A stretch of DNA of 64,000 bases, from NCBI GenBank assembly GCA_009760855.2, contig WPIO01000023.1:993501-1057500 (forward strand), in the 5' to 3' direction. The position numbers were made by a program, and so were the translations under genes. Positions 1,400-58,094 of this stretch are shown here, piece after piece. This DNA is from Cristatella mucedo. Its lineage: Eukaryota > Bryozoa > Phylactolaemata > Cristatellidae. The stretch's first letter is position 1. Each line of letters begins with the position of its first letter. The notes under the pieces are model-generated. The model saw nothing but the letters and a program-made list of their open reading frames with translations, searched no databases and was not told where the DNA came from.

Positions 1400-3190
1400 C
1401 AAAGTTTGGGCATCATTATTATTCGTCGTGCATCGACGGAGACCATGGTGAGCGCTGTGTTTGTGGCCTAGTTTCAATCGAACGTGGAACCCGCACACCA
1501 CGTTGGTAACAATCGTTCGGGCGTTCGGAAAAACTATAGCCAGCCGAGGATAAGCTCTCAATAACTGAGGCTCTTTAAATACTGTGTACAACCGTATGAA
1601 AAAAGAATGAGATATTTTCTTTTTTGCTGTTTTGAAAAAGTGGATCAGTGCAAAATAAAATATTTCCGCTTTATGTCTATTGGGCTACCAAGTGGCGCTA
1701 GAAATAATTGTTCATTCAAAGTACCAATACGAAAGCGGTGTGACCCCTTCCACGTCCGGACATGAATAGGGCGTAAACACAGCACCCGTAATGCTGCTAG
1801 TCTTAGCTGCTACTTGCAAAATACCAGGGAAACTCCAGCCCTAATATCAAGGCTATTGACAAGATAATAGTGGGAACACAGCCATTTTGAAGGGCATCCA
1901 AATCCTAAAATAGCGAGTCCCTTTACAAAGTGAAGATAATTACAGTCGACAGAGACGGAAGCTTATAGGTGCCTAACATTAGCCATTGGGTAGGTAGCCC
2001 ACAGCCCCACTGACTTGCTGACCGGAAGAAAGCTTCAAGCGAAACTCAGGCCTGGCTTAAAGCCTGGAGCATAAATCCTCGAGCTCATCTAACTGACTAC
2101 TCCATTACGGTGGCTTTTTAATACCCCCAGACCTTGCATTATCAAATAATCTGTTTCTAGCCATTACAAGTGAAGAGCCAAGAATCGGGAATGTATCAAT
2201 AGTCGTAAAATTGCAGAACTAGATCGCTTCAGTTTCAGTACACCAAGCTAACCTATTTGAAACTAAAAATTTGACCTAAGTCGTTCGCGAATATTAGGGT
2301 AGTACAAATTAATCACCATGCCACAATGAAATATGCCCGAAGGCGTACTTGCAACAGTTTACTATACTGGCTGTCAGTTTTTTTTTACTTGGGTTTATTT
2401 GAAAAGTAGACATCACGGCATCTTCGGATAAGCAGGAAAATTTTTGGTAGATAAACAGGAACATGTTTTGAATTTCCAAAACTTGGGCAATACCCTGCAA
2501 TTGAATATTCTCGTAGCGAAAACTCTGACTTGTGAGGCTTCACGTACGAGTCGGAAGAAATGTGCCATGCATCCATGCATCAATCAATCATGCAATCATA
2601 ATCAATTTAAAAGTGAATATGCCGCTTACCTGATCAAGGAAGCATATTTTGTTCTTGATGACCCTAGCACACTTTATTAGACGCTGGTGGTCGAAACCAT
2701 TCCGAATGCCCAAATGATGACAATCTCTCGCAATATAGTCAAAGCGAACCACGTCAACACCCGTTTCGCTTGAAATTATCTAAACAAAACATGCTCATGG
2801 AGCAGTATTTGTCTCAAAAGCTGTCTTACTTCAAAGCCTAGAAAGTCACTAAAGCTTCTATTATAAAGGACTCTATTAAATTTGACAGGATTACACAGTT
2901 AAATTTTATTTTGACTCTTTCTATGCATTGTCTCCCATACAAGTGCAGTAATGAGCAATGACCTCAAATGCCAACCTCATACCAAAAGACTAGGCTGGAA
3001 TAGATAGTTCACCAAAACATCGATAAAGCCAACTAGAAAAAACATCAAGCCACTGTTGAGTACATTAAAAAATGGCTCTGGGGGCTAAATAACGAGCCGC
3101 GAACGTAAGTTCATCATAACGTAAGCAGTCACATGCAATTTTTATTCACCCGAGCTTCGGGGTGAGATGGGGTGATGGGGTGACGAGCCG
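1400..3190. other. No recognisable gene; AT-rich unique-looking sequence
   Basis: I see no convincing exon, repeat or element. Small features are a run of ATCAATC-type words near 2575-2600 and a GGGGTGATGGGGTGA direct repeat at about 3168-3183. Short open frames here have no protein-like features I recognise. Confidence 0.5.
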
Positions 3191-6349: not shown

Positions 6350-7780
6350 GTTTAATCAGCTAGGAATTATTTAAGTAAATTTTAAACAATATAATGCGTT
6401 ACCAGCTTGAATACTTCGCCGAATGTCGGCCAGCGGCTCACCTTACTATTTGGTGCGACTCAATTCATGGGGATTTCATATTAATCTATGTTTTGTGGTT
6501 TTTAATTACGCTGAAGTGAGAGCCCTATACTGAGGCGTACGTAGCCTGATACTCTAATCTCACGATTTCATTTGACGGGGTAGATCATTCGAGCGTCTCT
6601 ATACTAATTTAACAAAAATATCAAAGTATTAAACCATAATAAAAATCTAGTCAAACCTAGTAAATCAAAGAACAGAGATAGAAAATGCTTATAGGAAAAT
6701 GAAATTACCTGGGTCAAGAAGCTCTTATCCTGAACTTCATTTCCTGTCATCTAAAATAGAAGGTTTCTTAATACATTCCAGCACCAGAGTATAAAAATTT
6801 AATTCATACAATAACGGCGCTTTTCAAGCTCCTTGGTTAGCAGCTATTACCGAAATGGTTATTGATTTTCAACAATGACTACTTTTTGCCGATTCACTAT
6901 TTACCGATTACCAATGAAATGAAAAAATAAAGGCTAAGATAAAGCTAGTTCAGAGAAATCATCGGTGCGCCTTTGAACAAAGTCAGCTCCTTTAGTACTT
7001 TGGCTAACTATTAAAAAGTCTCAGATTTGATTGACCGTAGCACGCGAATAATGCCACCATGCTAATCAAGCAACTAGTGCACTTGTCTTGGATAAAACGG
7101 CAGGATATCCGGTATTCCTCGCTAGAACTTATGGATGCATATTTAATAGCGAAAACGCATGTGCTAACATTGGGTGCATTGGCGTTACATACCTTTTGAC
7201 TATTCTCTCGGCATAAGAGTCTTTGAATAATTTCAATGCGAAGGTTATATTTACTAAACAGTGGCTTCAGATCCTCGTTTTTTCCATGAGATATTGAAAC
7301 ATTTTGAGCGACTCTTTTTTCGCCTATGAATAAAAAAAGGTGTTACCTCTACAATAATTATATATTGCATGAAACGAAACTCAGCCATAATGAGCAGTAA
7401 TCAACAGATTTTTTTACGGATAATAAGGAGATAACATAAAAGCTGCACGATAAATCGGCAAAGTAAGTTAGTCGTCTGGAGCCTGCCGAGCACAAATGCG
7501 TAACCAGTGGTCTTCCAAAATTGTAATTAAAAAGTAACTGAATTGACAGCAGAGTAGCAAATTAGCTGGGCTGTGAGCAGATGTCAAGCCAGTCATGAGT
7601 ACGGGAATGAGAAGATAGGAAGGGTGTATTCATGAATCGCCAGTGGTAGGTAAAACGAGTGGCTTTTTCTGCTGATGGTATTCAGCATGGTTTGACCTAT
7701 GGGCCGTTGGAATGTGCTGGATTTATTGATAAAGTGAATGCTTACTTTGACGGAATTTTATCCTGAATTTCTGTAAATCT
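6350..7780. other. No recognisable gene; AT-rich
   Basis: Nothing I can support. No splice-bounded coding block, no tandem array and no LINE motif is recognised until the family B fragment near 7785. Confidence 0.45.
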
Positions 7781-14231: not shown

Positions 14232-14308
14232 CGACCATTGTGACGTAGCGTTTGGAAAAATAGATGGCATTACATGCCGATCAAATGTTCGTGAGAATGG
14301 ACCTTGGC
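14232..14308 (-). CDS. SAMHD1: SAMHD1-like exon c (HD-domain active site part)
   Basis: Acceptor CATTTTAG at 14309-14310, donor GTAAGT at 14226-14231. Two bases complete a Gly codon shared with exon b, then 25 codons begin GQGPFSRTFDRH and end NATSQWS, in phase 0. Human SAMHD1 has GHGPFSHMFDG and then KWTHE at this place, so the exon boundary falls just before the HE of THE. The aspartate matching human D218 is kept. Human H210, a catalytic histidine, is Gln here (codon 14304-14306, CAA), and human H215 is Arg (codon 14289-14291, CGA). These changes suggest lost or altered dNTP hydrolysis, a diverged paralogue or a decaying gene. The next exon, which should start with a HE-type motif, was not found down to position 1. 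Confidence 0.85.
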
Positions 14309-14378
14309 CTAAAATGATGAGCTGGCTGAAGTCTTTACAGTGATTAGCCTAGCGGTCTGCAGCAAGAGATGAGTTTAC

Positions 14379-14497
14379 CTAGATCATGGCAGAGCCCAGC
14401 AATTTTCACACAAAGAATGTCTTCATCAGTAATTTTTAGATCGTCGTTCTGGCTCTCTTTCAGATTTTGCACAAGCTCGCCAGCTAAGTAGCATACT
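14379..14497 (-). CDS. SAMHD1: SAMHD1-like exon b (HD motif)
   Basis: Acceptor TTTCATTTTAG ends at 14498 and donor GTAAAC starts at 14378. One base completes the Gly codon of exon a (GG plus A), then [32 protein letters not shown], and one base of the next Gly. Human SAMHD1 has VGYLAGCLV and [15 protein letters not shown]. The CHD triplet holds the metal-binding H206 and D207 of the human enzyme, so the HD motif proper is intact. The exon is 119 bp, open throughout, with phases that fit exons a and c. SAMHD1 enzymes are dGTP-activated dNTP triphosphohydrolases. The function of this copy is inferred from homology only. Confidence 0.9.
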
Positions 14498-14734
14498 CTA
14501 AAATGAAAGATAACAATTAAAACGGGTGTAAGCAATTAAACCAGCTTAAGTCCAACATTTTGTAATGCTCTCAACAACCCCATACTCTTTTATCAGCTGC
14601 AGTTATAAAAAATGACATTACATTTATTAGGCATCTTTACGGCGAGGGCAAGAGAATCACTGGTCACAGGGAGCAAAATTTTCTTTTTAAACAGCCAGCA
14701 AACGGTCTGCTCGTTTACGCGTAACTACGATGTA

Positions 14735-15000
14735 TTAAATCTCCGTCTCTAACTCTACAAGTCTACTAAGATTATGTGGATGTTACGTGTGAGAGTTTTC
14801 TATAGCCGACTCAAAGCCTAAGTGGCTTTCGCAACTCCTTCGGCAACCAATGGAATTCATCTGATGCAACAGAGATAAAGTGAGACGCATAGATGAACCA
14901 GGAGAGCAGTTGAAGTAGTTAATAGCACGGAAGTAGCAGCTCAGGAAGGCTGGAAAGAATATGCCACTGTCTGCAGCAGGAGGGTACATGTTGGGTGTCG
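14735..15000 (-). repeat. Family B LINE, 3' end
   Basis: Minus-strand CTCCTGCTGCAGACAGTGGC, TTTCCAGCCTTCCTGAGCTG, TCTCACTTTATCTCTGTTGC and GAAAGCCACTTAGGCTTTGA match the 3' portion of family B at 13130-13320. It ends with GGAGATTTAATACATC near 14735, like the family B end at 40260. It sits in the SAMHD1-like 15-kb intron. Confidence 0.6.
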
Positions 15001-15114
15001 TGTAAGAATTGTGAAGTTAATAACAATACTGCGTTAGTGTTGCCCCTCAGAGAACTGAATCTGTTTCTGAGAACTTAAATGTGATGCATACAAAGTCTTA
15101 CAAAATTATTGTAT

Positions 15115-15765
15115 TGTTACATATGGAAGCAGCAGGCACATGGTAAGCAGGCATATGTCCAGGAAAGATGAATCACAAAGACCCACTACATGTTGTCACA
15201 AACAAGTTTGTTTTAGTAAATGTCGTCAAGTCAGGAGACTCTGCCAAGTTCATTGATCGTGAGTTCCAGGCATTGGACGCAGGCTAACTAAAGGCATGGT
15301 CCCCACAGAAATTGGACTCATTTCAAGGCACAGCCATCGATTTAAGTTCTAAAAGCGAGTGGTAATATGCTTAGCCTGCTGAGGGAGTAGTTCTGATAGG
15401 GAGGCCGGAGCTCGAGAACGAAGGGACATGAATGTAAATGATGGAACCTTGAAATCGATAGGCTGCTTGATTGGCAGCCAGTGCATGTCAGCAACGAGCG
15501 ATGTGATGTTGCAACTGCGACTTTCACGACAGACTAGCCTAGATGCAGAATTATGCATTCACTATAAGCACCCGATTAAACACTCAGATAGACCAGCAAG
15601 CAGTGCGTTATAGAGGTCGAGATGGAATGTCACAAATATGGGACCAGTTTAGATGTATTGTCCCTGTGTAGGCAAGCGTGAATTTTGGAAACGTTGTGCA
15701 GTGAAAGAAGGTAGCTTTGTCTGTGGTGCTGATCTGGTCAATTAATGAAACTCAAAGTGTGTTTT
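15115..15765 (-). repeat. Family A LINE relic, 3' half
   Basis: The minus frame reads NSASRLVCRESRSCNITSLV, MHWLPIKQPIDFKV and LLPQQAKHITTRF, the family A C-terminal ORF2 block. It is followed by 3' UTR words (GACCCACTA and GATGAATCACA in complement). The 5' end near 15765 abuts a family B copy in the same orientation. Confidence 0.7.
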
Positions 15766-16740
15766 ACAGTCTAGAAACTACAGAACAGAAGCTTTCGTGA
15801 CCAATTAACATAACAAAAAATGTATTGTCCGTACAGAAACTGAGGGCATGTTGAGGCTTAAACTGCTGCAGTTCAGCTAGGTATGAAGGAGCAAAGCCTT
15901 GGCCGGCCTTGTGGGTCAGCACGTCAACTGGTAGTATTCCTTGATCAATCGGCAGCAATCCAAGATTTGTAGCAAAGGATACGCATGGTCAAACCGTCGG
16001 AATTTGTTATCAGTCATGGCATTTACATTAACTAGCAGCTGCAGTAGCCTAATGGCTTTTTCCTGTAACCAAGCAAAACGGAATTACAATAATTTAGCCG
16101 AGGCAGAACCAAGTAGCTAGTCAAACGTTTTGAAATTCACCTTGTAAGACAATGACAATGTTACATGCAGATTGGACATGCCGATTAGCTATGGAAGCAG
16201 TCTACTTTCTTTTCAAATTATAGGCAGCTATAAAGGACTGATCCTAAATCGAGCACATAGTGAGGGTTGCCCAACAAAGTCGCCTATTAAAAGATCATAG
16301 TCTTTTGGTCCTGCCTAGTGCTTGATGTCTGCTATGAGGTGCAGTTCAGTTTAATCATCGTTTATTGTCAGCAAAGTTTCCAAAATCTAGAATCAAATGT
16401 CTGCATGCCAATCATTCAGTTTATCAGTCGCTGCAACAGATTCCCACAGTTCTGATACAAATTACAGCTGAGTATTGTCAGGATACAAGCGATAGCCTAT
16501 TCCACTTGCCCAAATTACTTTTCCAAAGATATTTAGTATAAATTGAGAATAAAAAATGACGGGGGACGGACCCTTTGGGGACTCCTCAAGTTACTGATTG
16601 TGTGGATGAGGCCGGACCCCCATATCATATGGATTGAACACGACCGAACAAGTCCAAATTGAACCAAGCCAGTGCCTCTTCTGCTTGACCGATTGTTGTT
16701 CAAAATCTTCTAGGTAGGCGCTCAATAATTTCCATGGTAA
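15766..16740 (-). repeat. Family B LINE relic including RT motif B
   Basis: The C-terminal part reads PIDQGILPVDVLTHKAGQG, PSYLAELQQF and GHESFCSVVSRL, the KELGWLTVDQRI to CRSRTVELTS stretch of family B. Further upstream (higher coordinates, minus strand) GVPKGSVPRHFLFSIYTKYL at about 16520-16585 is the reverse-transcriptase motif B (GVPQGSVLGPLLFTLY in related elements). A broken YADD-like region lies near 16480. It is frameshifted and inactive. Confidence 0.65.
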
Positions 16741-17170
16741 TTGAGAGATCTATTACTTCTATGGCAGTAAGATTCCCGTCATCTTTGCTGCATATTATGT
16801 CATTGTTTACGTGGAGGAGAGCAGTTTCAGTGGACAGCTATTACTTGAACCCAGACACAAGTTTCCTTTCTTTTTTGGGTCTCTCTGGCCGGACTCGTAT
16901 TTTGATTACAAAAAAGAAGCCCTATCGTTTCTAAGTTTCCGATTGTAGTCTAAAAGGAATTCTTTAAAATTGACTGAGTAATCATCACTTCCTATCGGAA
17001 TTCAAGCCTGCCATTAATAAGCAAGCTCTTTAAACATACTTGGTATGTTCAGGTGGGACTCGATGGCAAGCTTATACTGGTTGAGTCATCAGCCAGGACG
17101 GGGCGAGGACTGCAGACAACCCGAGTGCAGTTACAAGCGCGAACATTGTTTTACAGAAGCTTTAGAATGC
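16741..17170. other. No recognisable gene
   Basis: I see nothing supportable between the two family B LINE blocks. An open frame at 16734-16934 has no recognisable features. Confidence 0.4.
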
Positions 17171-17171
17171 A

Positions 17172-17465
17172 GTGAACGGAACTGCTGAAAACGCCGTGCC
17201 CGTCTCAGTCAAAGAAAGCCTTGAGCAACATTCTGAGATGGCTGGGGGCTTCCAGGCAGATTTGGACAGGGTTGCCGAATATGAAGCTCGGAATTATTGT
17301 AGTGTAAGCATGACTGTGGCAGAGCTATTTATGCAGGACACGGCAGAAGAAATACGACTAGATGAGAAACTGAAACGAAAACTTTTCTTTTGGGATGTCG
17401 TACAGAATCTTTTTAATCATTATTTGTATTTATCTCTGCATGGGGATAATACAAGTCTCAGGTAA
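17172..17465 (+). CDS. Unidentified 97-codon frame upstream of LINE endonuclease
   Basis: An ATG-started frame rich in acidic residues (SVKESLEQHSEMAGGF, DTAEEIRLDEKLKRK) lies a few hundred bases upstream of the family B endonuclease remnant and on the same strand. Position would suit an ORF1 remnant, which in L2/CR1 elements precedes ORF2. I see no zinc knuckle, PHD or esterase motif. A host exon or chance frame is equally possible. Confidence 0.2.
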   Translation: MNGTAENAVPVSVKESLEQHSEMAGGFQADLDRVAEYEARNYCSVSMTVAELFMQDTAEEIRLDEKLKRKLFFWDVVQNLFNHYLYLSLHGDNTSLR

Positions 17466-17639
17466 TGACATAGGCGCCGATCAGTAAGGCTGTAGAAACA
17501 GCTCAAAAAGCCCAAGTATCCACGAAATCTTAGTCCGTACCTATTATCGTTTTGTTATCATCGTTTAACTGCATTTCTACATGCTATTGGTGCTGCTAAG
17601 GTTCGTAAATTATGCATAATCAAAAAAAGCACCCCTGTT

Positions 17640-19880
17640 CCGACGCTGGGTATGGAGCTAAGAGCCCTCTCGTTCGATATTCCTAGCAAATCACGAGCCG
17701 TTCAGCTCATTCTCCGTCTTACGTTGCTGTGAATCTCTCTTAACTTTGTCATCGTCATGCCTGCTATAACTCCTCGTCCCACCTTAATTCTTGTCTTTGA
17801 AATATTTACTCAATGTGCAGTGAACGCCTATAAATAAGGATGACCTTGTTTTTGGAAAAGGCCTCGAACTGCTCGCCTTGACCATAACCTGGTTACAATT
17901 GGTTAACTACCTGACCAGTAGCGAACCAACATCGATGGGCTTCTTTATTCACAAACTTTTTGCACTCCCCTCGAAGCTGTCTTTTGAATGTATCGCATTA
18001 AGTTCACCTGAAAAAAAGCACTTAACGTGACCGTAGTCTTTCTCCCCCAGGTACCAATTATTCCTGTATCACACATTTATCTTATCTCATTTATATTCCT
18101 TGTGCTGGTAATCGATCCTTCGATGCTAAGGGTAATTTAAAATTCTTTTTGATAACTTAGCTTACGCCTACGCACAGAATTTCTTACACTGACTTATTTT
18201 TGTCTTTTGTGGCTCATCTGCATGGCCCCACTCACATCAAGTGTCACACACTAGACCAAATTTTCTCATACAACTGCACTTGGTCATCGCCAATTATCAC
18301 CAAATTCTGGCTATCTGACCACATGCCGATCTCATTTGTTGAACAATAAGTGCCCCCCCGCCTCAACAAAAATAAACTTTGAGTTCCTAAACCTTGAGAC
18401 CATTGGCGTCGATTCTGTCGGTGTGAGAATGTCTTCTTCGCCTCTGATGCTCAATCCTTTTTCAAATCTGCCATCACTGGTTGATTGCTACAACACGACA
18501 CTAGCCGACACGCTTGACGAGTTGGCACCTCTGACTAAGCCCATCGGGCGCCATTGCCTAGACGGCCTATGGTTTACCACAGACATTAAACTAGGTAGGT
18601 CTACTAAGTGCTCATGTAAAAAGCATGCAAAAGATCAGGACTGCCCATCGACAGCCATACGAGGAATTCTGTAGATATTGATAATCGATCATAGCAAAGG
18701 CCAAGTCTACTTTCCATAAAAACAATGTTGAAAAACAGATGCATAATCAAAAATGCTGATGTTGAAATCAGCAAGCTCAGTAACCTCTCCCAGGTTAGCT
18801 CTTTACCTAGATATAATTGTGATGGTCTAGCTGATCGCTCCTCTAGCTTCTTTACGAACAAGATAGACACGATCAGTGATTCCAGACCTAGGGATGGAAG
18901 CATCACTTTGTATCTTGTCCTCAATTCCATGCTGTACCTCAATGTCCACATTGAATGAGGAAACTGACGATGGAAAATTTCTCGTAACTAAATGACGATA
19001 AATCCGAACTTCTGCTCGTAGGTCATCCTAAGCATGTGGCTGGATTAAAAGGCCTTGCTCTTTTAATAAGTGATGTTGCAGTACGACCATCACCAGGAGC
19101 CCGAAATTTAGAGGTCGTTTTCGACAGCTGATTAAACTTTAAAAACCTTCATTCAGGAGATTACTTCTACAGCTAGACATCACGTCCTATCCCTATCTAA
19201 GATTATAAGCTGTCTTCCATAGTTACTTGCAAAACATTTAACTAGCTCCTTAGTTCTGTCTCGGCTTGATTATTGCAATTCCCTCTTTGCTAAGCTACCA
19301 CAAAAAGTATCTAGGCCACTGCAGCTGGCTTGAATATGGCTGCAGGGCTAATTTTTAAGTCCCAGAGGTTTGACCACGTGTCTCTTTTGGTAAAAGAGCT
19401 GGGATGGCTGCGGTTCGACCAACGGATACAGACCAAAGTTCCAACTTTTACCCACAAGGCCACTGCGGCTAGGCTCCTCCACTGCTGCACCAGTTTCAGC
19501 CTCCTCGTACTCTCAGGTTCTGTATGGAAAATAAGTAAACTTTCCATTCTTCTGCTTAAAGACCTTTGGCAACAGAAGCATTAGCTCTGCAGGTCGTAGA
19601 CTGTGGAACTCACTTCCATAATTCTTACGCAACGACAACTACTCTCCTGCTGCCAACTATGGCTCATCATTTCAGTGGTTCTGTGTTGATACTCCAATGC
19701 TATTCCCTAGCTCAACTGCTGCTGCTACTGACTCTGCTATGATTCCCACTTTCTCTTTGCTTCGTGAAATGAAGTCTATTGGCTTCTGAATGCCTACCGA
19801 AAGCCGCTTAGGCTGTGAATATGCTATACAAACCCTCTTTTTAACACCCTTATAGTCTGTATTGCCTTGTTGAGCTACAG
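17640..19880 (+). repeat. Longest family B LINE: endonuclease, linker, then C-terminus; RT palm missing
   Basis: From about 17850 the plus strand reads GLELLALTITWLQ (APE endonuclease N-terminus, GLxxLALTETWL type) and SFECIALSSP. Next are a decayed VVVxYRPPG stretch and HTLDQIF (the HTLDLIF of L2/CR1 endonucleases). The EN-RT linker follows: YNTTLADTLDELAPLTKP, WFTTDIKLGR and LADRSSSFFTNKIDTISDS. At about 18960-19000 it jumps straight to a decayed LNDDKSELLLVGH, skipping the fingers and palm including the FADD box. It then continues to KELGWLRFDQRIQTKVP and the 3' end. It has many stops and is a dead, internally deleted copy. Confidence 0.7.
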
Positions 19881-19894
19881 AGGTGATAGATTAC

Positions 19895-20515
19895 GTTCCA
19901 TGATTGCTTCCTCAAGTTCATATCCCAATTAAAGAAGACAACTAGTCCTCTAGACCTTCATCAAACTGCCCTGCTTTTACGATGCATAGATCTGCTGCTG
20001 TCATGCATAAGTAACTTCATAAATACGTCGTTGGCCTCAGGTCAAGACCCAGTAATATTCAAGAAGGCTGTAATCAGGCCACAACTAATAAAATCACTAC
20101 ACCACGAGAACTTGAGCAACTTCCGCCAAGTCTCCTTTCTACGGTTCAATAAAAGACATACGAACGAGTCGTGGAAGACCAGCCGGACTCATACATAGAA
20201 AATTCAAATCTTGCTAGTAAGTACCAGTCTGGTTTTAGGGCTTCACTTCACTAAACCTCCATTGCTTTGGTGTATAATGACCTAATTATGACAGCAGACA
20301 TGGGTAGAGTCTCACTGATTGTTTGGCTCATTATTTTGGCAGCTTTTGAAGCGATCAGTCGCCAAGTCCTTCACAAGCACTTCTTGTCCAGCCTGGGCAT
20401 CACTGGCACTGAAATGCAATGATCCCTGTTCAACATCAGTGGGACACTACAGCATTAATGTGCTTGGACGAAAATATTCCGAGAGGCCTCTGAAGCATGA
20501 AGTACCAAGTAGGCT
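19895..20515 (+). repeat. Family A LINE relic, RT fingers/palm part
   Basis: Reading along the plus strand with frame changes one finds FISQLKKTTSPLDLHQ, then SLASGQDPVIFKKAVIRP, ENLSNFRQVS, SKYQSGFRAS, MGRVSLIV, AAFE and SLGITGTEMQ. These align in order with the RT domain of the 58 kb copy. It ends in the EVPLKYGVP region, which the next family A copy repeats from its own start. Confidence 0.7.
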
Positions 20516-20566
20516 TTTGTAGTTCGATTGCATGCAGGCTCCTCTGATAAGTCACCAGCGAACAGC

Positions 20567-20867
20567 TGTTAGAAGCATCACCTAGAGGGGCCGGTGCACA
20601 GCTGTGGTTTGACTGTGATGTGGCCTAGACACAGGCCGGTAGCATGCCGGTGAACAGATGGTGAATTCACCATCAGGGTCGGCCGGCTCACGGTTGTGGT
20701 CCTCCTAGATGAATCGTCGGGTTGACAGGGGAAAGGAGGAATCCATGAGGGTAGTCGATTGGGAGAAGGGGGATTAGGGAGCCATCCGTGCTTCGGCTCC
20801 ATGGGTCGTGCAATAAACTGTCTGGTTTGTTCATCGACTGGCTCTCTGCTGTGCGAAACGAACGACA
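20567..20867 (+). repeat. Probable solo LTR (Ty3/Gypsy type)
   Basis: A GC-richer ~300-bp block sits between two family A fragments. It starts TGTTAGAAGC and ends CGAACGACA, and has a polyadenylation signal AATAAA at 20812-20817, about 50 bp before the end, as expected of an LTR. ACAGC lies at 20562-20566 and again at 20865-20869. If that is the target duplication, the LTR would end at 20864 without the usual CA, so the exact right edge is uncertain. No internal retrotransposon sequence adjoins it. The gag relic at 41.5 kb is not shown to belong to it. Confidence 0.45.
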
Positions 20868-20904
20868 GCTTTATCCTGCTTCCACTCGTCTTCATTGTTT
20901 ATAT

Positions 20905-22130
20905 ATGGATTGATGCGAACGGACAAGGACCATGCCAGATACCTCTGAAATATGGGGTACCTCAGGGATCCGTGCTAGGTCTGGCTCTTTTCACGGTTTA
21001 TACTCTCCCTCTTGCCGATGTGATTGCCAGGCACAATCTAGGCATTCACTTCTATGCAGGTGGTACTCAGTTGTACCTTTACTTTAATCCCTCCAGCTCA
21101 GCATTTTAATTTCTCTTAACTCTCTTGCTGCATATATTGATGATATCCTAACATGAATGCTAGCAAACATTCTTAAATTTATTGATGATAAAGCCAACTT
21201 CCTTTTTATGGGAAAATCTTGCGCGATTAAGAAATTGGAAAGGTCAGTGCTCACTGTCGGCTCTGCCAGCCCATTTGTTAAATCTGCACAAGATCTAGGT
21301 GTCGTGTTTAAAGTGACCTTCGTTAGACGACCACGGGAGCATCATACTCAAGTCTTCCTAGTTTCACCTACACAGCATTTCTAAATTAGCGCTTAGACAG
21401 GGATACCACATCTATGTTGGTCCATGCATTTGTGGTATCTTGTCTTGACTTCTGTAAATAACTGCTTGCTCGCCTTCCGGCATTTGTAATCAGGCGCTTA
21501 CAGCTGGTGCAAAACTCAGCAGCTAGTCACGTCTGTCGTGAGCGTCTCAGATACAACGACATAGTTGCCTGCGACCTGCGCTGGCTCCCAGTCAATTGAG
21601 CTATCGATTTTAAGGTTCTGTCATTCACTTTTAGGACCCTATACTTTTTGGATGCAGCCCACCTATCAGGTCTATCCCCTCTCCAACCTAAGCATTGTAC
21701 CACTTGGTTTTAGGAGTCTAATCGTGTACCATTATCTCGTATGAACCTCATATCCTTTGGAAACTCGGCCTTTAGTTCCAATGCTCCCAAAGCCTGGAAC
21801 TTGTGTATTGCACATCTTTCGTTACAAGATCCCCCTGACTGTACCACGTTTAAAAAGAATCTAAGATGCATCTACTTGTTACAGCATTTAGTGGTTCCAT
21901 GTGATTTGTCTTTTGTGTGCTTATGTGTGCTAACGCTGTGCATGCTGCCACTAATCATATTGAATGGAGATCTACTGCCTGTTAACTCTAACCATGTTAC
22001 ACTTTGTGCCATTTAGGATACTACCACTAACCCCTCGATTGTGCTTCCAGTTGCAAATGTGAAGTGCCTAGAAAGCGGGTGAGTTCTCTATGGGTGCTGA
22101 AGCTAATGTATTAGCATTAGTATTACAAAC
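20905..22130 (+). repeat. Family A LINE relic from RT motif B to 3' end
   Basis: It starts at GQGPCQIPLKYGVPQGSVLG (RT motif B), then TLPLADVIARHNLGIHFYAG, where the YADD box reads YAGG. It continues through decayed LKFIDDKANFLFMGK, the IRRLQLVQNSA stretch, KAWNLCIAHLS and CDLSFVCLCVLTLCMLP to a 3' end with GTGAAGTGCCTAGAAAGCGG. Replacement of the catalytic aspartates plus frameshifts make it inactive. Confidence 0.75.
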
Positions 22131-22139
22131 GGAGGGAAT

Positions 22140-23250
22140 CGAATCTTGACAAGATATGCTTTGACGGTCACATATGCTTTGACGGCCTCTGCATGCCCGA
22201 CAAATATGTGATATGGTTAATTAAAGCTTTGCTTTGATGCATTTCAATTCATGCAGAATTATTATAGTAGCGTGGTTGAAACTGGGCACAATAAGCTCTC
22301 CACGAGTTTTAGTCTACCAGCACACCAGCCAGCATCAAAACTGCAGTCACCATGTGTTCGATAACAAGCAAATCGTTAGAAAGTGTGCAATAAACGTTCA
22401 AGTTAACATTAAGAATTATCTAGAAAATTTTGGAAAACTTATAAGTAAGTGACTTGTCGTCTTTTGCTGAAGGTTGGTTAGTTTGCATTGCCGATTATTG
22501 TGCTTGGATAGCTGCAGAACCATCCCGGTGATACCATGAGTATTCGACATGTCAATAGAGGTAAAAGAAAAACTCAAATTACAAGCTGAGGCATAGGAAT
22601 ATGGAAGAGAGTACGTGTGGCCTTGAACGGTCTCCTCGCATTGTCCTGAAGCCGAAGTGGTACCCGAGCTAGTTGCAGCCGTTTGGCATCACTATTCACG
22701 TTCTAACGATCGGCTTCATCTCTCAAATTTAAGACAACCTGTTTTTCAGAGTCGTGGCTACGCCTAACACAATAGGGCCGTTTTCTAAATTTATCTGAGT
22801 TCTAAACACACGGTTGTGCCTATAGGAATATGCTGCACATTCTTAAGGTTGCCTAGAGCCTAAATAAACTTCTTAATCTGATAAATGGGCACATTTTATT
22901 CGTAATGGTCGTTTTTTCGAGCACCATTCGCCTATCTTGTTACGAACGTCTTTGAGAGAAATTGTACTTTTCTACAGATCGCTAATACCTGGAGACCCTA
23001 TTGAAGTAAGTCGGTGGGGTCTCATTCCATCAAAAATGCTACTCCAATGACCGGATTTTAGTCTTTTGGTGGTAGTAAAAGTGGTCAGCAGGTAGAAATC
23101 GCTACGGTAGATCTGGCATCGACAGAAGCAGCACCATTTCAATAATCACCGGTATCTGTTCCTGGCACATTAGAAAAGATATTCAAAATCCACCAGAGAT
23201 ATTATTTTACGCAAACATTTTTTTTTTCGAAGGGGAATCAATCCCCCATT
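22140..23250. other. No recognisable gene; small direct repeat
   Basis: ATATGCTTTGACGG occurs twice at 22155-22190. Otherwise I see no supported exon or element. Confidence 0.45.
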
Positions 23251-23259
23251 CCTGCTTAC

Positions 23260-23316
23260 CTTTGCCGGAGTAAACCCTTATTGATTTCAGCCATTCAAGT
23301 AACTCGGGCATAGCAG
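23260..23316 (-). CDS. Weak candidate mini-exon in the SAMHD1-like intron
   Basis: A 57-bp block has acceptor CTAACTACAG and a strong donor (AAAG then GTAAGC) on the minus strand, encoding AMPELLEWLKSIRVYSGKG. The frame is open further upstream (EPGKGCLTTA). It lies between SAMHD1 exons a and b, which join without it. It could be an alternative exon, a nested minus-strand gene or chance. I recognise no domain. Confidence 0.15.
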
Positions 23317-23399
23317 CTGTAGTTAGGCACCCCTTGCCTGGCTCTGCATTGGTCTCTTGTATGCTTCCCCAGTCTCTGGTCATCAAACCCACCGGATTT

Positions 23400-24000
23400 A
23401 ATGATTATTGGTCCCCAAATAGCTACTTTTAACTGTGACACTTAATTTAGAAAGTACACCAAGATCCAAAACGAGCATTTAGGTGGAAATATAAACACAA
23501 TGCATTCGACCATTCGTCTATGAGATAACTGGATCAATAATACGAAGTACCTCGAATTCTCCCCCTCTCAGTGAGTAACTTGCTGGTCAGCGTTCCACGT
23601 CAGACGGCAATTGATTTGTTTTTACTTGAAACTACACACCAATTTTTAAGTTGCTAGGCTTAAGTGATTAATTAATTTCATGCAATTTTTGTGCTTGTAG
23701 TGTCATTCATTTTAACTTTGTATTGATACAGTTTAAATTTTCAAATGAGTATGCACACAGCAATTGTTTTGGATTATATGCAAATGTATATCTAGAACAA
23801 ATCCCGTACCCTCTTTCCCTTTTATTAGTATGCTGTCCTAGAACGACTTGCCAGTGGATGAGTACATTTCTTCGACTACATAAGCGGGTACTTTTGATTG
23901 AGGAACATTACACAAATTATGGCCTGTCGGCCCAAAAGTGAGAGAGCACATTTCATTCAACTTCGATGACATCCGCTTCTGGGTTTTCGCAATTTCTTTC
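23400..24000. other. No recognisable gene
   Basis: This AT-rich stretch shows no exon or element I can support. Confidence 0.4.
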
Positions 24001-25340
24001 GTGTGAGGCAAGGTAATGCGTCTCAGTCCGTAACTGTAAAAGGCCACTAGTACAAAGTGGGGCTCTGCAAGATAGTTTTCTACTGCCCACTCATGGCCTA
24101 AACGGTTTTCGGTACCCATACACGAGCCTTAATCGCACGAAACCAAGAGAAAGCGAGAAGTGCGGCTGCGTCCGGAAGAAAGCCTGGAAAATGATGCGAC
24201 AGCCCTCCGTTCGATTAGTCGTCAGGCTGAGTAATGCGACCTAGCAGCAAATATCCGGCCTACAGCAGCAAGCAATTTATTTGCAGAAACCACACCTACC
24301 TACCCCAGTCTAGGCACTCTGGACGGCTTCCAGTGTCTAGTGGTCTAGCCTTCTCGCTCCTGCTCGCTCCTGCTCCTCTCCTTGCTTACTCTTCCGGCAG
24401 CCCTTATCTTCCATGCACGCATCGTTTTTGCACTGACCAGCCATTGATTTAGTTAAACAAGCCCGACAGCTGACCACAGTTTATGTTAGAAAGACGCCAC
24501 TCCCCCAGCCTAAGAGGCAGCCCATGCATGGATTTGTGCCAGACTGCCGAGTCATCAGCCCAGAGCCATTCTCCGTCTCTCAACCACTCGAGAGCCTTCG
24601 GCGGCAGTCCGATCCTTCGTAGAGCCTCCGCCCAATGCTCGCCGGCTCCTGAGTTACGATCCCTCACGACTGAGTAGCAAAGAAGTAGCCGCTCAGGACG
24701 TCATGAAATGATGTGCTATAGTGGGCAGCGGGAGAGATGATGTCGTGAGTAAAACTTGTGCGTGTGAGCTACACAGTCTGAGACATGGAGAGCAAAAGCT
24801 TGTGTCGCCAATAGTCCTTAAGCATAGGGCGATTGGACAGGTAATTTATCATCAACGGAGAAACGGAGAGCACAAGGAGGCTGAAGCTGATGCAGCACCT
24901 CAGCTAGGTGTGAATGAGCCGAGCAATCGCCGGCGAGTCCTAACCAGGATTTCGCTCTGTATCTGTTGATCATAAGGAGCTATCTCACCTAGTTCAGAAG
25001 CAGAGACACCGGGCTGGACCTCTGACATTTGTTGACTAGCCTTACTAGCCACATTCATCGCCACATGCAGAAGCTTAATTGCTTTTTCCGGTAGCTAAGC
25101 CAAAACGGAATTGCACTCCAGTAAACTAAAAAGTCATTGAGGCATGTAAAGTTTTGGTAAGACACATTAATGTTAGACAATCTGAAATTTAAAGACAATA
25201 ATAAAACTGAATGGCTAGCTGCAGAAACAGCATTCTTAATGACGCTTCCACACTGTATTCAAGACTGTAATTGTGCCCTAAAGAAAAAACAGAAATCAGC
25301 CACTCATGTAGTCTTTGCCAACTGCAGATGGCATCACACA
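24000..25340 (-). repeat. Family B LINE relic, split by a GC-rich insert
   Basis: The minus-strand 3' part at 24000-24165 (CACTTCTCGCTTTCTCTTGG, GTACCGAAAACCGTTTAGGC in complement) and the C-terminal ORF2 part from 24665 upward belong to one family B copy. The second part includes words matching CTCCTGCTGCC, CTGCAGG, CTAGCTGAGG and the GGCTTAGCTACCGG stretch. Their order is that of 13130-13320 and 15766-16100. Between them lies about 500 bp that the other copies lack. Confidence 0.55.
24165..24665 (-). mobile_element. GC-rich insert in LINE B, unclassified
   Basis: The insert interrupts a family B LINE. Its minus strand has a 72-codon open frame with AGEHWAEALRRIGLPPKALE and WLRDGEWLWADDSA. 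The pattern W..IG.P..VLEWL..G is reminiscent of the start of DIRS-like or Gypsy-like reverse transcriptase regions, but the catalytic core is not visible, so this is only a hint. The plus strand contains repeated CTCGCTCCTGCT words near 24353-24377. Confidence 0.25.
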
Positions 25341-25554
25341 TCATTTTAGTGCGAACGTCACAGGCTCCTTACCGAGCACCGAATTTCTCTGTGGCCTAAG
25401 CTAAAGTGGATTACATTAGCTCGCTCATCGGAGATTATGGTCAACCGATCACCTCCCTCTGAGATTCTCGCCCTTGCCTGTAGCTGTATAAAATTGTCTA
25501 ACAGAGATCATATATATAGCCTTATACTTGGTTGCCAAGTTTGTTTTTTATGCA

Positions 25555-26790
25555 TGCCAATTCGCCTGTACGTCAGTGGCACTGGTCTTCAACGGTTACG
25601 GTTCTATCTCAACGAGGGACTTGTAAGCCTTGATATCAACTGGCAGCCGTTATCCGGAAAACCTAAAGTATAGGATAAGTCAGGGATATGTGCTTAGTCT
25701 ACTCTTTTCAAATTTCTATTCTCCCTCTTGCAGATTTAATTGTCTAACCAAGCGAAAGCATGTGATTATATTGAGATGACAGTCAAGTGCACCTATGCCA
25801 AGGTACTTACCTGACTTTGAGCTTGATTGCACTATCTTAACTCCATTTCTGCATGTATTCGCCATGCTGGTTTTGCCCAGTGGCTAATGTGCTCACCTCT
25901 ACCAAGGGCAAAGTGACTGTATTTGATGACCGAGGTCGCAAGCTCGAGCCCCATGCCATACATGTGGAGCGCCAGAATAGAAATTAAGTTTTCTTAGGGT
26001 GCTATAAAAACGAATTATATTGTATATTTATTTCTTACTTTGCCCTTGGATGGTAGCAAAAGTTCTTCAATTCACGACAATGAAACCAATTACCAATGGT
26101 TAAATCTTTTTTGGAATTACTTGGAATTAGGAAAACCGAACCTAAAACATGAGCTAGCCCGGCGTGACTTCTGCAGCATCTGCAGGCAAGCTGGATGTCT
26201 TGCACTGAAGAGACCTTCAACTAGACGGCCATAGCAGTTCAACGGTCGAGTACACATGCTTTCAGCTAAGTGCTATTTCAAACAATCGGGGCTGCTTAGA
26301 CAAACTCAAAATAGGCTCCTTATTTCATCTCAACCTTTTAAACTCATTACTCAAAGGTCTTTCATTCTTACTACGAGACATTCAAAGGCAAAGCGAAACC
26401 CAAAAGCTATGCTTTCCTGTCACGGACGTAGCAGTTGATAAAATAAGCCACCTCTCAATGATCTGCAGTAGCTCCCTATCAAAAGGCTTATCGATTTATA
26501 GTTGTTAGCCCTCACTTTTGGTCGCCCACTTCTCTAGCTCCAGTCATACTACCCAAACTACTTCCAAATCCGGCTTGGCATCTTACCACCAGCTCTTCTC
26601 ATTCAAGTAGTTCAGCTGTGCACTGACTGACATCACATTCGTTGAAGATCGTGTCATTCGTTCGTATGCATCAAAAACCTCGAGCTCACTCCAGACTGGC
26701 GAAATGGAAATCAATTCCCTGACTCAGCAAAATTTGAAACGAAGTTGAAAATACAAATTTACCTACCAGCATTTTCTGAGTGCATTTGCA
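25555..26790 (+). repeat. Divergent family A-like LINE, split by a SINE
   Basis: The left part (25555-25862) reads VSGTGLQRLRFYLNEGLVSL, LDIN, a decayed GVPQGSVLSPLLF and SISACIR. The right part (26036 onward) resumes exactly where the other copies do, with a decayed WMAANFLKLNDDKTN (TGGATGGTAGCAAAAG). It continues through a decayed STVKSAYFQLS to LIDL*LLALTFGRPLL. The nested SINE at 25863-26035 accounts for the gap. It is older than the SINE. Confidence 0.6.
25863..26035 (+). repeat. SINE with family A LINE-derived tail, nested in a LINE
   Basis: The tRNA-like head reads GCTGGTTTTGCCCAGTGGC (A box region), then GAGGTCGCAAGCTCGAGCCC (B box region). The tail GGAGCGCCAGAATAGAAATT, AAGTTTTCTTAGGGTGCTAT, AAAAACGAATTATATTG matches the family A LINE 3' end (AAGCGCCTAGAAAGAGATTA, AGTTCTCTGAGGGCGCTTTA). 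It aligns along its length with the minus-strand copy at 56505-56650. Confidence 0.65.
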
Positions 26791-26799
26791 TTTTTTTTG

Positions 26800-29540
26800 T
26801 TTCGTGCAAAACACTCATGGAAACTAAGCGATTCATTACTAACCACTTGATGAATACTTTTCAGCAAATTTAAAGTGCCTAAATACAGATTTTAATATAG
26901 TCGTGTGTTGTGCAAATTCTTTCATGCCATTATTGTTTCGACCCGGAGGGGGTACTAATTTTTTGCATTAATGCACAGGATTACGAAAGTGGTATCAACC
27001 TGCCTGCATGTCACCGTTAGCTGCAACATTTAAAATACTAATTCTTCTCTACTTGAATCGAAGAAACCTGTTTTCACGTAGCTTTCATCCTTAAGTGGTA
27101 AGGATCGCCTGTGCACTAAAAATATGTGACCTATCCTGTAGGAACAAAGGGTAAGAATCGAAGAATAGAGCTACCACCGATACCCATCATTTTGTAATCA
27201 ATCCTGGACAGATCGCGATGTAGTATACAGAAAACTTTAGACTATAGAACTAAAACACAAAGTTGACGGGAAAAGGCTATTTAGAACACACTATCAATGG
27301 TGGAACCAGTGGCTGGGGAATTCCCCTTACAGCAGGCAGCGACCTGTGCTGTTCCTATTCCTAGACACAATCACCAGCTACGACGCCATTACGTCTTAAT
27401 TCTGATTTATGGCTAAGCGCCTAGTTTTTATAGACTAAAAAATTAATTTTGCTATAATTTGTATTCCTGGCTTAGCCATACGTACATACAAATCTGGCTG
27501 GTCTGGCCTTACAAAAGATTTTGCAGGTCTTGTTAACTAGATGAAAATCCTGGCTCTGCCACTGAGTAGCCTTATTCGCATGCACTGAGGAAGAAATTAT
27601 TTTTCATAGCCCAGTTTGATGCCTCCATAAGATTCGAATTTTAAAATTCCTGGTTTCGTATGTAGGACCCTAGCCTAACAAGATTATGGTTTGCCTGCTT
27701 GTCTAACAACGGTGCGATGCATGCCACAAAGCTTCACTAATTGATTTTCTTGCAGCTGGTTGATATAAAAGCACCTGGATAGAAATTTGGTTTTCTTAAT
27801 CAGGTAAGAAAACAAAATTTTATATTCATTTCACTTTATAGCTCATCTATAGTAAATTTAGAGGCATGCGTTTTTCTGATTTCTTGCATTCCCACACATG
27901 ATGTTGGGTAAAAACATCCCTGCAAGGCCGATCATAACACTGCTGTAAATCTTTTACCGGTTACTTTTGGTTACAAAATGAGGTTTCCTGAAACTTGCAA
28001 ACAATTTCAATCGCAAGAGTACAACTTTTATCAGTTTTACATACAGTAAAGTAGATGGAAAAAGCTAGGATAGCTAAATTCGAAATGCTGGGTTATATTC
28101 TCTCCCTATAGAAAAACGTTTTGGTTAGTGATTTTTTAGCAGCTCATTGCGTCTCAATTTCGAATAAATTTAGAATAGCATTTACCTAGGTTTATATGCA
28201 AATTTATATAATTCATAAGAGTATATCTCCATTAAGTATTTATACCCCATAGATATATTCTGGAACCCAAATATTTCCCCTGCAAGTATAAAAACTACGT
28301 TTCGTCAGTTTGAAAGTTACAGGTAACCAGCTTTGGCAGCCATACCGCTCAACACGTATCATTCATCGTGGAGACTTACATAAATGTATCCATTAGTGCC
28401 GCTTCGCATCGGATTCGGTTAGGCTTCGCTTTGATTCTCAAACCTGTACTATGCTTATATTCTGTTTGTTTTGCTTCTTTTCTCCAAATCGATTGCTGTA
28501 AAAACACGCCAGTCCAAAATCTTGGGTGGAAACTGTTTCCCGTGCAGAAGATTGTGAACGTCAAACGCTTACCCAAAGCGGGCGCAGCTTTAATTCCGGT
28601 CGGTCACGCTCACTCCGGCAGGTTTTCAAAACTCCAACCCAGCTGGTCATGGCGGTAGCTGGGAAACTCCAGAAGCGTCAGTCATCACGTCGAGCGTTGT
28701 GCTGTATTTTAAAACTTCTGAGTGCCTTTTAAAAGACCCCTATAAGTTTATATCCGTTTATTTCTTGTAAGTTCTAGATAAGCATATGTTCTAGTGTAAG
28801 TATACGATCTAGTATAAGTTCTTATGTCCACATTACATGTAAGCTTGACAGTGGATGTTCAAGCAATGTATGCAAATTTGTAAGTTTTAACCCCACCCTT
28901 TTGGACAGTCATCATCGCTCTACCTCTGTTGTGCAACTATATAGGCACCATGAAGGTTACTACGTCAGGTGCGGATAACGGATTGAGTAACCAACAAACT
29001 TAACTTTCCACATGGCCTTGTAAGCATGTGCAAGCAATGCTAGTTTGATTGTATCTTAACAATACATTTTAATCTGTGTCTACTTGTGCAGCCTGTAGTT
29101 TGTTGTTTGCTAACGTTAGTTTCCATATAGGAAGGCAGTTTTGTTTCCGTGATCTTATAGGTGCAACTGATCACGTGTCTTTGATTCCTTTTGGTTTAAA
29201 GAAAACATTGAAATAGCTATAGGTATTTTGGGTTGGCTCCAAAAAAGTGCTAGCTCAGTCTGTTAGCTCTTGCTATAGCCAAATAGTAAAAATCTATAAA
29301 AACACATGGAGCTTCAATTTGGTTTCTGAGTAAGTCGTTTTCTCACTTTATGTGTGTGAAGTATTAGCAATTAATTAGCGTCATCCGTGCATCCAAAACT
29401 GTCGAATGTGTCTACGATTAAAAAATATTTCTACTAATTACTTATTTGTATTACTGCTCGCTTTGAATTGTAAACTCTACCAAGCTTTTGTCACTGTCTC
29501 AAATAATACACAAGTTAAAACTGCTTAATTCATTGAAAAC
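26800..29540. other. Intronic sequence, no element recognised
   Basis: This lies inside the 15-kb intron between SAMHD1 exons a and b. It holds no LINE, SINE or array I can recognise. A cluster of CTAGTGTAAGT-like words at about 28775-28830 is the only local repetition. It is the longest element-free stretch of this intron. Confidence 0.5.
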
Positions 29541-29548
29541 TGTCTTAC

Positions 29549-29709
29549 CCGATACTGTGCTCAAATCGAGTGTGAGTGGCTCCAATAAACACGCGGTTAG
29601 CACCTCCAAGTTGCTTGATGTCTCGGAGTCTTTGAAACTGGGGAGTATTGATTATTTTGACCAGCAAAGGGTGAAGCTTGATGCATCCATGCACAGGATC
29701 AGTCCATAT
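29549..29709 (-). CDS. SAMHD1: SAMHD1-like exon a (start of HD domain)
   Basis: Acceptor CCGGTTTCAG ends at 29710 and donor GTAAGA starts at 29548. Fifty-three codons plus two bases read [34 protein letters not shown] and [10 protein letters not shown]. Compared with my memory of human SAMHD1 ([37 protein letters not shown]) about 70% of positions agree. Arg/His of RFEH match human R164 and the metal ligand H167. Human D137 in allosteric site 1 is Asn (29647-29649), and N119 is Thr. Human Q142 and R145 are kept. The 5' exons, including any SAM domain, were not found upstream to 64000. The 15-kb downstream intron leads to exon b. Confidence 0.9.
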
Positions 29710-37623: not shown

Positions 37624-37647
37624 GTACACACACACACACACACACAT

Positions 37648-37685
<38 letters not shown>

Positions 37686-37703
37686 ATATATTTATATTTA
37701 TAT

Positions 37704-37799
<96 letters not shown>

Positions 37800-37806
37800 T
37801 GAGTGT
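37624..37806. repeat. Compound (AC)n-(AT)n-(GT)n microsatellite, inverted
   Basis: AC repeats at 37625-37680, AT-rich repeats at 37680-37718 and GT repeats at 37719-37805 form a large near-palindrome. The AC arm is reverse-complementary to the GT arm around an AT core. It could extrude a hairpin and favours Z-form DNA. It begins at the 3' end of a SINE. Confidence 0.95.
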
Positions 37807-42863: not shown

Positions 42864-42982
<119 letters not shown>

Positions 42983-46849: not shown

Positions 46850-47755
46850 CTCTTTATGGGGTACGATGCTTAGCTTGGTGAGAGAGTAGATCGGAAAATT
46901 AGGCTGGAGCCCAAGAATGAAGGGACCTAAAAGTGAGTGAACAATTCTCGAATTCGATGCGTTGCTTGACTGGGTGCCAGTGCATATTAGTGAGAAGCAG
47001 TGTGATGTGACAACTGTGACGCTCACGACAGGCAAACCTAGGTGTTGAGTTTTGCACCAGCTGCATGGACCTGAGTGCATAGGCTGGTTGGCTATTAAGC
47101 ATTGACTTGCAGGAGTCACGACGGGATGTCACAAATGCATTGACGAATTTATATATAGCATCCCTATCTAAACCAGCACGAATTATAGCAATGTCATGCA
47201 GCTGAAAGTAAGCAGAATTGACTTTGGAGATGATGCAGTCGTCTAATGAAAGACTACTTTGCAACATGACACCTAGATTGTGTGCAGATTCCACTAGAGA
47301 TATGCTGGCACAGCCAGTTTTGACGGTATGCCTTTCCAATTTTGGAATCATACTTGGTTTTCCTGTAACTGGTAAGTTTTTTTTTCAACATTAATTTTAA
47401 GACAGCTTGCCGCCATCCATGTAGGAGGTCATAAAAACATGTAGTAAGGGAGTTGAGACAATTTGACGTGCCCGAGGGTTGGGAGGGATCAAAGCATACA
47501 CACAACTTGGTGTCATGCACACAGAAGTGATACCAATTTTGTGATTGATAGATTGTGCTTGGTAATCACATCGGCAAGAGGAAGATTATAAACCATGAAA
47601 AGAACTAGACCGAGCACACAGCCCTAAGTTATCCCTTATTTCAGAGCTTCCCTGGATGATCTTTGCCTGTTCACTTCTATAATCTGGTCTTCCACTGAGA
47701 GAGGATCCGAACCACTACCGTGCAGTGCCAGTGATTACAGCTTAGTATATTAAAA
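46850..47755 (-). repeat. Family A LINE relic, RT motif B region to C-terminus
   Basis: The minus strand reads HDTKLCVCFDPSQPSGTSNC (after the YADD box), KLERHTVKTGCASISLVESA, SLDDCIISKVNSAYFQLHDI, AYALRSMQLVQNSTPRFACR and the HWHPVKQRIEF stretch. Upstream complement words for GVPQGSV and RSYLSGRLQ reach 47755. It lacks the 3' UTR. Confidence 0.75.
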
Positions 47756-56849: not shown

Positions 56850-58090
56850 TACAGCGTGTTCACTACCCAGAATACGGGAAGTTTTGCAAAAGGAAATGAC
56901 GAGCTAACTTGTTTGTTAGAGATTTTACTAGCCTTCCCGGCTAGCCATTACAGGCCTGGAGCAGTAAGTGTTCTCTTTTGTAAACGGTGGCGTGCTAACC
57001 CTTGCCTACTCCAACTCTTACTCAGCATTTGCCGCCACCATTGCCCTGCAATTTGCACCATTCTCCATGGCTTACTGAACGCCCTATTTGATGAGTAATT
57101 TGTTATCACTCTGTTCATTTTTCTTTCACCGTCGGCTGCCTATAATTAAAGCTAGAAAGAGCAAGCTTTCAATTTTAGAATAGTGCAATTCGGATCGGTG
57201 GGACCACCAATGCAAAATGATGTATTTTAATTTAGAGTCTGTAAGGCTTATCAAGGATTCATGTAGTTGTAGTGCCCAAACTTTGGAGGGGATGACAGCT
57301 GCAAATAATACCACATATCCGGCGAACAGCCTCGAATCTCAAATCATGCAATGCCTCACAATGTGAGACAGATGATCTTCTCGTAGGCTAGCGTGAATTA
57401 TTCCATAGTGTGCTAAGCCACCAAGAAGGTGAAGAGGCTCACTAGAGACTGGATCATTTGTCTCACAGTGTATATAGATTGATGTGTTCCACTGCAATAG
57501 CTAGATAATTCCCTGTATTGTGCTCCTTTCTGAAAGGTATTGAAGTAAGGATTTTGTCCTTTCCTAAGTATACTGAACCTCAGAGCTACAATATTGGTGA
57601 AAAAGGCTTGAGATACTTCTTCTCTACAGGTATCTATCTGGATGAAGGGATTCGAGCAGGATCTCGCTGGCACAGACTGGGAATAGTAGTACATATCTTT
57701 GTTATCTAGAGAGCCCCACCCTCACATTCCTGAATTTGTTCGTCCCTATGCTACTCATCCCTTAAATGATGAGGTATATTAGACATGAAAAACATACACT
57801 ACACGCCATAAGCACCTACTTTATTTTTTATTTAAAAATCTGTATTAGAAATATATATGTGCTAAATGAATTTATAGAAATATGTTTACATATATATATA
57901 TATATCTAAGATAATTTTTGCAATTGATTGCAGTTTGCTACTGAATAAATAGATTCCTAGATTACCTTTGATGATCCTGAGAGTTTGCTAAGGTTAGATA
58001 GATTTAATTTTAGAGATTTTTTAACTTTCAATTGTGAATAGAATAGTATGATTGCTGAAAGAAAAGATGTAGTGGGCATTTTATTAAATG
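56850..58090. other. No recognisable gene
   Basis: Open frames at 56856-57098 (plus) and 57413-57694 (minus) carry no motif I recognise. (AT)n runs occur at about 57893-57905. Confidence 0.4.
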
Positions 58091-58094
58091 TTAA

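Follow-up and report, generated by a model that had tools for sequence, protein, structure and literature searches.

SAMHD1 is a deoxynucleoside triphosphate (dNTP) hydrolase and restriction factor of animals. In this work, we analyzed a SAMHD1-like gene (further called c5) encoded on the minus strand of a 64,000-nucleotide (nt) stretch of the genome of the bryozoan Cristatella mucedo. This whole stretch, referred to as the window, corresponds to positions 993501-1057500 of contig C155 (GenBank accession No. WPIO01000023.1) in an assembly of 572 Mb and 688 contigs. In the mechanism proposed for the human enzyme, H215 is the general acid, and the H215A variant shows no measurable activity, yet it tetramerises and binds nucleotide in the same way (PMC7311409). 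The H210A and H233A changes disrupt catalysis, and D311A is inactive (PMC7045340). Inhibition of long interspersed nuclear element 1 (LINE-1) is lost in the H233A, D311A, and H206A/D207A variants (PMC4489885); the same paper cites a different study reporting continued LINE-1 inhibition by a 311A mutant, and the roles of SAMHD1 beyond hydrolysis are, for LINE-1, presented there as debated.

Set beside the human enzyme, c5 is best explained as a recently decaying member of a SAMHD1 lineage that would be catalytically dead and is maintained by selection (we estimate the probability of this reading at about 0.7). A likeness may be seen with the catalytically inactive myotubularins, which pair with active members (PMC3688503), as in both cases a maintained paralogue standing beside active ones is marked by catalytic loss; however, myotubularins are another enzyme family, and pairing is reported for them, whereas for the SAMHD1 copies it is only proposed. 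No description of a maintained, catalytically dead SAMHD1 lineage was recognized in the titles and opening abstract lines of open PubMed Central (PMC) papers (subscription papers and animal sequence databases were outside this scope), and none is named in passages of PMC6744909 and PMC7232136; similar copies may be annotated elsewhere.

Exons A, B, and C of c5 (161, 119, and 77 nt, i.e., 357 nt) join into a single open frame of 119 residues, with stop codons in the other two frames and AG/GT at all six splice sites, which reproduces, at the same minus-strand coordinates, the three-exon model given in an earlier note on this DNA. The encoded protein matched human SAMHD1 chains in a phmmer search with an expectation value of about 1e-41, is 62% identical to human SAMHD1 over the shared stretch, and scored 35.3 bits against the Pfam HD family (cut-off 22). 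The homology of these exons to human SAMHD1 is far beyond chance, and both searches place c5 in the SAMHD1/HD-domain dNTP triphosphohydrolase family by the sequence of its HD core. Exon F was located with human SAMHD1 as a tblastn query (2779-2630), while exons D and E were traced from weak matches combined with splice-site scans, and the remaining exons lie downstream, beyond the window. AG/GT sites flank all 10 exons modelled for c5, which are as follows (human residue numbers are given):

Exon A, 29549..29709, minus strand: residues 117-169, IWTDPVHG...; R164 and H167 kept; N119T and D137N
Exon B, 14379..14497, minus strand: residues 170-208, VCYLAGELV...IAGLCHDL; H206 and D207 kept
Exon C, 14232..14308, minus strand: residues 209-232, GQGPFSRTFD...QWS; H210Q (14304-14306) and H215R (14289-14291); D218 kept
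Exon D, 7193..7323, minus strand: residues 233-about 284, 131 nt, AG acceptor and GT donor; Ala at H233; frame-broken
Exon E, 6709..6750, minus strand: residues about 285-299, MTGNEVQDKSFLTQ; open
Exon F, 2630..2779, minus strand: residues 300-353, IISSETGVDVVRFDYIARDCHHLGI...; D311V (2747-2749); Y315, D319, and R333 kept
Exons G to J, beyond the window on C155, minus strand: G (984720), H (972141), I (967319-967223), and J (963700)

The residues read earlier from exons A-C were all found at their codons, i.e., R164, H167, H206, D207, and D218 are kept, and H210Q (CAA at 14306-14304), H215R (CGA at 14291-14289), N119T, and D137N are changed. The first residue of exon D, which sits at the position of human H233, is Ala, and the catalytic set H210, H215, D218, and H233 of the human enzyme consequently reads Gln, Arg, Asp, and Ala in c5. 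The earlier note had also assumed an intact HD metal site. Its exons cover three of the four ligands (H167, H206, D207, and D311); the fourth falls in exon F, where human DVDKWDY is DVVRFDY and D311 is replaced by Val, by which an intact metal site in c5 is ruled out. In comparison with human SAMHD1 (PDB 7ujn and others), c5 is alike in its exon A-C core and in keeping H167, H206, D207, D218, Q149, L150, R164, Y315, D319, R366, and Y374, and unlike in H210Q, H215R, H233A, and D311V, in its broken exons D and I, and in having no detected SAM exon.

When the exon A-C query was used against the assembly, 13 matches were obtained (15 candidates scored), all of them on C155, and these make up six tandem SAMHD1-like genes within 0.42 Mb (contig positions):

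c1, 683.5-721.9 kb, minus strand: GQGPFSR, Pro233, D311 kept
c2, 773.4-791.1 kb as far as modelled, minus strand: GHGPFSH, HE, DVDRWDY
c3, 818.5-853.8 kb, minus strand: GQGPFSR, Pro233, D311 kept
c4, 900.8-935.9 kb, minus strand: GHGPFSH, HE, DVDRWDY; Glu at 218
c5 (the window gene), 963.6-1023.2 kb, minus strand: GQGPFSR, Ala233, D311V
c6, 1071.5-1105.9 kb, plus strand: GHGPFSH, HE, DVDRWDY

The search for a second, canonical copy that had been advised for this genome thus revealed c2, c4, and c6 on the same contig, all with His at 210, 215, and 233, whereas c1, c3, and c5 have Gln210, Arg215, and Pro, Pro, and Ala at 233, respectively. Canonical c4 and c6 are like c5 in exon order and share its contig, but differ from it in their retained catalytic and metal motifs and in the presence of a SAM exon. 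The sisters c1 and c3 are like c5 in H210Q, H215R, the loss of H233, W313F, and exon structure, and differ from it in being open in the exons found and in keeping D311. All three retain H167, H206, and D207; c1 and c3 have all four metal ligands, and the loss of D311 is private to c5.

The changes are not spread evenly over the protein. Among 125 columns invariant in human SAMHD1, c4, and c6 (and in c2 where present), 84 are kept in c1, c3, and c5 alike, and each of the three has a substitution at 16 others, among which are 210, 215, and 233 (P = 0.0018 on a random expectation). Within the same columns, a self-chosen set of pocket residues (149, 150, 164, 315, 319, 366, and 374) is kept in 7 of 7 cases in these copies. 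These belong to nine dNTP-pocket positions that were considered, and at Q149, L150, R164, Y315, D319, R366, and Y374 the human residue is found in c1, c3, and c5. Concerning the allosteric positions, Q142, R145, R333, and R451 are kept, D137 is Asp, Val, and Asn in c1, c3, and c5, respectively, and the remaining ones are variable.

The conservation of these positions was also examined in the best 80 of 198 confirmed prokaryotic relatives. His occupies both 210 and 215 in 80 of 80, H167, H206, and D207 are equally invariant (80 of 80), and D311 is Asp in 79. H233 was aligned as His in 59 of 80, the remainder being gaps or other letters, some of which are probably loop misalignments, and at position 218, Glu is found in 47 relatives and a gap in 33. 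By this measure, it is the catalytic changes that stand out as extraordinary, unlike those at the allosteric positions. Position 119 is variable (Ser in canonical c4, and R, Q, A, H, or K in the 80 relatives), and position 137, Asp in 74 of 80, is Asn in three relatives which keep the other catalytic and metal residues. The suggestion that c5 is regulated differently owing to N119T and D137N is therefore weak, and it was rejected.

Despite its broken frame, exon D of c5 gives a clear match and is bounded by good acceptor and donor sites. Its two halves, AKKESLKMFQYLMEK (7323-7279) and EDLKPLFSKYNLRIEIIQRLLCRENSQK (7276-7193), lie in different frames, the first one read onward runs into TGA at 7269-7267, and the exon has 131 nt versus 129 nt in c1 and 141 nt in c3. 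Exon I, located outside the window, is frame-broken as well (97 nt versus 99 nt in both c1 and c3), and its break is away from any long homopolymer. In total, 8 of 10 exons are open in c5, compared with all 10 (A-J) in c1 and all eight found in c3. The exons of c5 add up to 1.2 kb, and in this assembly the gene bears, in exons D and I, the frame-disrupting lesions of a pseudogene.

In a tree of 11 rows, c1, c3, and c5 formed one clade (support 100/100), within which c5 grouped with c1 (97/92); the forks among the canonical copies and human SAMHD1 were not resolved in it. The simplest history would be that H210, H215, and H233 were lost once, ahead of the split into three genes. Ratios of nonsynonymous to synonymous substitution rates (dN/dS) by the NG86 method were 0.34 for c1-c3, 0.43 for c1-c5, and 0.36 for c3-c5, with 0.40 for the canonical pair c4-c6. 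A codon model (our own GY94 code, five taxa, 295 codons) was then fitted, with dN/dS expressed as omega. Gapped columns were dropped, leaving 303 codons for three copies and 295 for five, no alignment contained the two bases where exon D breaks, exons I and J were left out of the selection tests, and exon E entered only the pairwise NG86 comparisons. In the two-rate model, the c1/c3/c5 clade had an omega of 0.375, and omega = 1 was rejected (twice the log-likelihood difference, 2dlnL, 58.1); once the stem was given its own rate, the values were 0.38 for the clade, 0.44 for the canonical pair, and 0.08 for the stem.

By exon block, omega (c5/other two copies together) was 0.30/0.22 in exons A-C, for which a dN/dS calculation had been proposed beforehand, and 0.17/0.22 in exon F. 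Moreover, under neutral drift, with branch lengths derived from the NG86 comparison, 7.5, 10.6, and 6.8 stop codons would be expected in c1, c3, and c5, and none was seen in 309, 318, and 304 codons, respectively. Catalytic loss, as predicted from the residues, combined with open frames and purifying selection characterizes the clade, c1, and c3 as pseudoenzymes, and c5 departs from this in its frames. The ideas of the earlier note that c5 could be a non-canonical paralogue or an early pseudogene can be seen in this light. The former fits the lineage, as the catalytic histidines are changed and both sisters, c1 and c3, carry H210Q and H215R, have open frames throughout the exons found, and are under purifying selection, but c5 itself is broken. 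The latter suits c5, owing to breaks lying outside the three exons then considered, and the statement that the frames are free of stops holds for exons A-C and fails for the gene, whose exon D is disrupted.

Several observations weigh against the proposed history. The clade evolves less slowly than the canonical copies with the stem (omega 0.375 against 0.241 in the two-rate model). Constraint is weaker in exons G-H (0.70/0.56, 92 codons), and in exon D (0.81/1.00, 43 codons) no purifying selection was found, so this exon appears unconstrained. Two of the nine pocket positions differ from human (K312R and H370Y), a difference shared by all six copies, canonical ones included, and the absence of nucleotide from the catalytic site of human H210A, stated in PMC7045340, counts against dNTP binding there. 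No SAM-domain exon was detected for c1, c3, or c5, either in the genome search or in the upstream stretches, i.e., 34 kb for c5, 8 kb for c1, and 6 kb for c3, examined with human and c6 queries. As regards decay, the exon D break is next to a run of A, a context prone to sequencing errors, the c5 branch has an omega of about 0.51, for which omega = 1 is rejected only modestly (2dlnL 4.49), and there are no stops in the 304 codons of c5 outside the breaks. It follows from the last two values that the decay is recent at most, or that the breaks are not real.

The second possibility, that both breaks are assembly or sequencing errors, would mean that c5 is intact and expressed, a pseudo-dNTPase of the same kind as c1 and c3, which D311V has taken one step further from catalysis. 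The run of A, the AG/GT sites at all modelled exons, the lack of stops, and the branch omega of c5 agree with it; the occurrence of two independent breaks within 1.2 kb of exon sequence, versus none in the 18 exons modelled for c1 and c3, does not, and neither do the exon I break without a long homopolymer and the D311 loss private to c5, and we consider such a double error unlikely. It is less probable still, though compatible with the other explanations, that exons D and I are skipped and c5 yields a shortened protein. In the sisters both exons run from phase 0 to phase 0, which would leave the C-E and H-J joins in frame (C ends and D and E start in phase 0, as do the end of H and the start of J), but as D and I both have their splice sites, neither exon has to be skipped, and without exon D a part of the HD core would be gone.

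Two further explanations concern the whole clade, and we give both very little credence. If c1, c3, and c5 were all ordinary pseudogenes in neutral drift, the lost catalytic residues, the broken c5, and the exon D omega near 1 would be accounted for; against it stand the pocket residues kept in 7 of 7 cases, the codon model, and the absence of the expected stops, also in c1 and c3, which are open in the exons found, and it was rejected. Alternatively, the proteins might still be active hydrolases of another chemistry, with Gln210 and Arg215 assuming the general acid and substrate roles, and c1 and c3 indeed keep H167, H206, D207, and D311 as well as D218. Against this speak the invariant His at 210 and 215 in the prokaryotic relatives, the additional loss of H233, and the inactivity of human H215A (PMC7311409). 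In light of the mutant data in PMC7311409, PMC7045340, and PMC4489885, c1 and c3 are probably not dNTPases.

According to the preferred reading of a dead, maintained lineage, the common ancestor of c1, c3, and c5 would have lost three catalytic histidines (H210Q, H215R, and H233P or A), while keeping H167, H206, and D207, the dNTP-pocket residues of the canonical neighbours, and the exon structure, and the lineage would then have been maintained by selection as a pseudo-dNTPase. Its products would presumably bind metal as well as dNTP (or nucleic acid) but carry out no hydrolysis. Conceivable roles are those of a sensor, of a nucleic-acid binder, or of an inactive subunit within complexes formed with the canonical copies. 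Within this lineage, judging from its sequence, c5 has most likely lost its function only recently; it lacks metal ligand D311 as well, and its frame is disrupted in both exon D and exon I. A broader proposal can be put forward only tentatively, namely that c1, c3, and c5 form a standing pseudo-dNTPase family in a retrotransposon-rich stretch, binding metal and dNTP without hydrolysis and selected as dNTP sensors, as dNTP or nucleic-acid binders, or as inactive subunits tuning the neighbouring canonical SAMHD1. If true, the lineage would present a natural separation-of-function experiment, in which catalytic histidines were replaced while the pocket, the metal ligands, and the frames were kept.

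As for the models of the neighbouring genes, exon E of c3 was not found, and its exon J was not found in the stretch from 813 kb up; c2 was modelled without exons E and H, and exon D of c4 was modelled without a fixed end. In the genome search, SAM-domain exons on C155 were found only for c6 (1071454 and 1077467, plus strand) and c4 (935806-935898, minus strand), and none was detected there for c2. The latter, despite its canonical motifs, has no GT donor after exon A (C155:791127-790967) and a GC donor after exon B, and it may also be damaged or use non-canonical splice sites.

Two scans of viral contigs gave no relatives, Rfam and tRNA scans of the window gave no hits, and none of nine proteins searched against Pfam (exon F and eight pieces from the window) exceeded a cut-off. 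Fragments of reverse transcriptases of non-long terminal repeat (non-LTR) retrotransposons are present on both strands at 58088-58861 (plus), 53503-54162 (minus), and 20726-21109 (plus, below the cut-off), and further reverse transcriptase fragments were judged by eye at 59104-59595, 46899-47384, and 50372-50701; one fragment lies within the intron between exons A and B, and the others are upstream of exon A. Long dinucleotide microsatellites (AC/AT/TG; TG with 44.5 copies at 100%) occupy 37626-37806 and 42892-42980. Elsewhere in the assembly, the 21 kb contig C688 looks mitochondrial, with COX1 at 15615-16955 (minus strand), where TGA read as Trp and AGR codons at positions usually taken by Ser point to a bilaterian invertebrate, and the COX1 pieces on contigs C166, C83, C549, and C299 look like nuclear copies of mitochondrial DNA.

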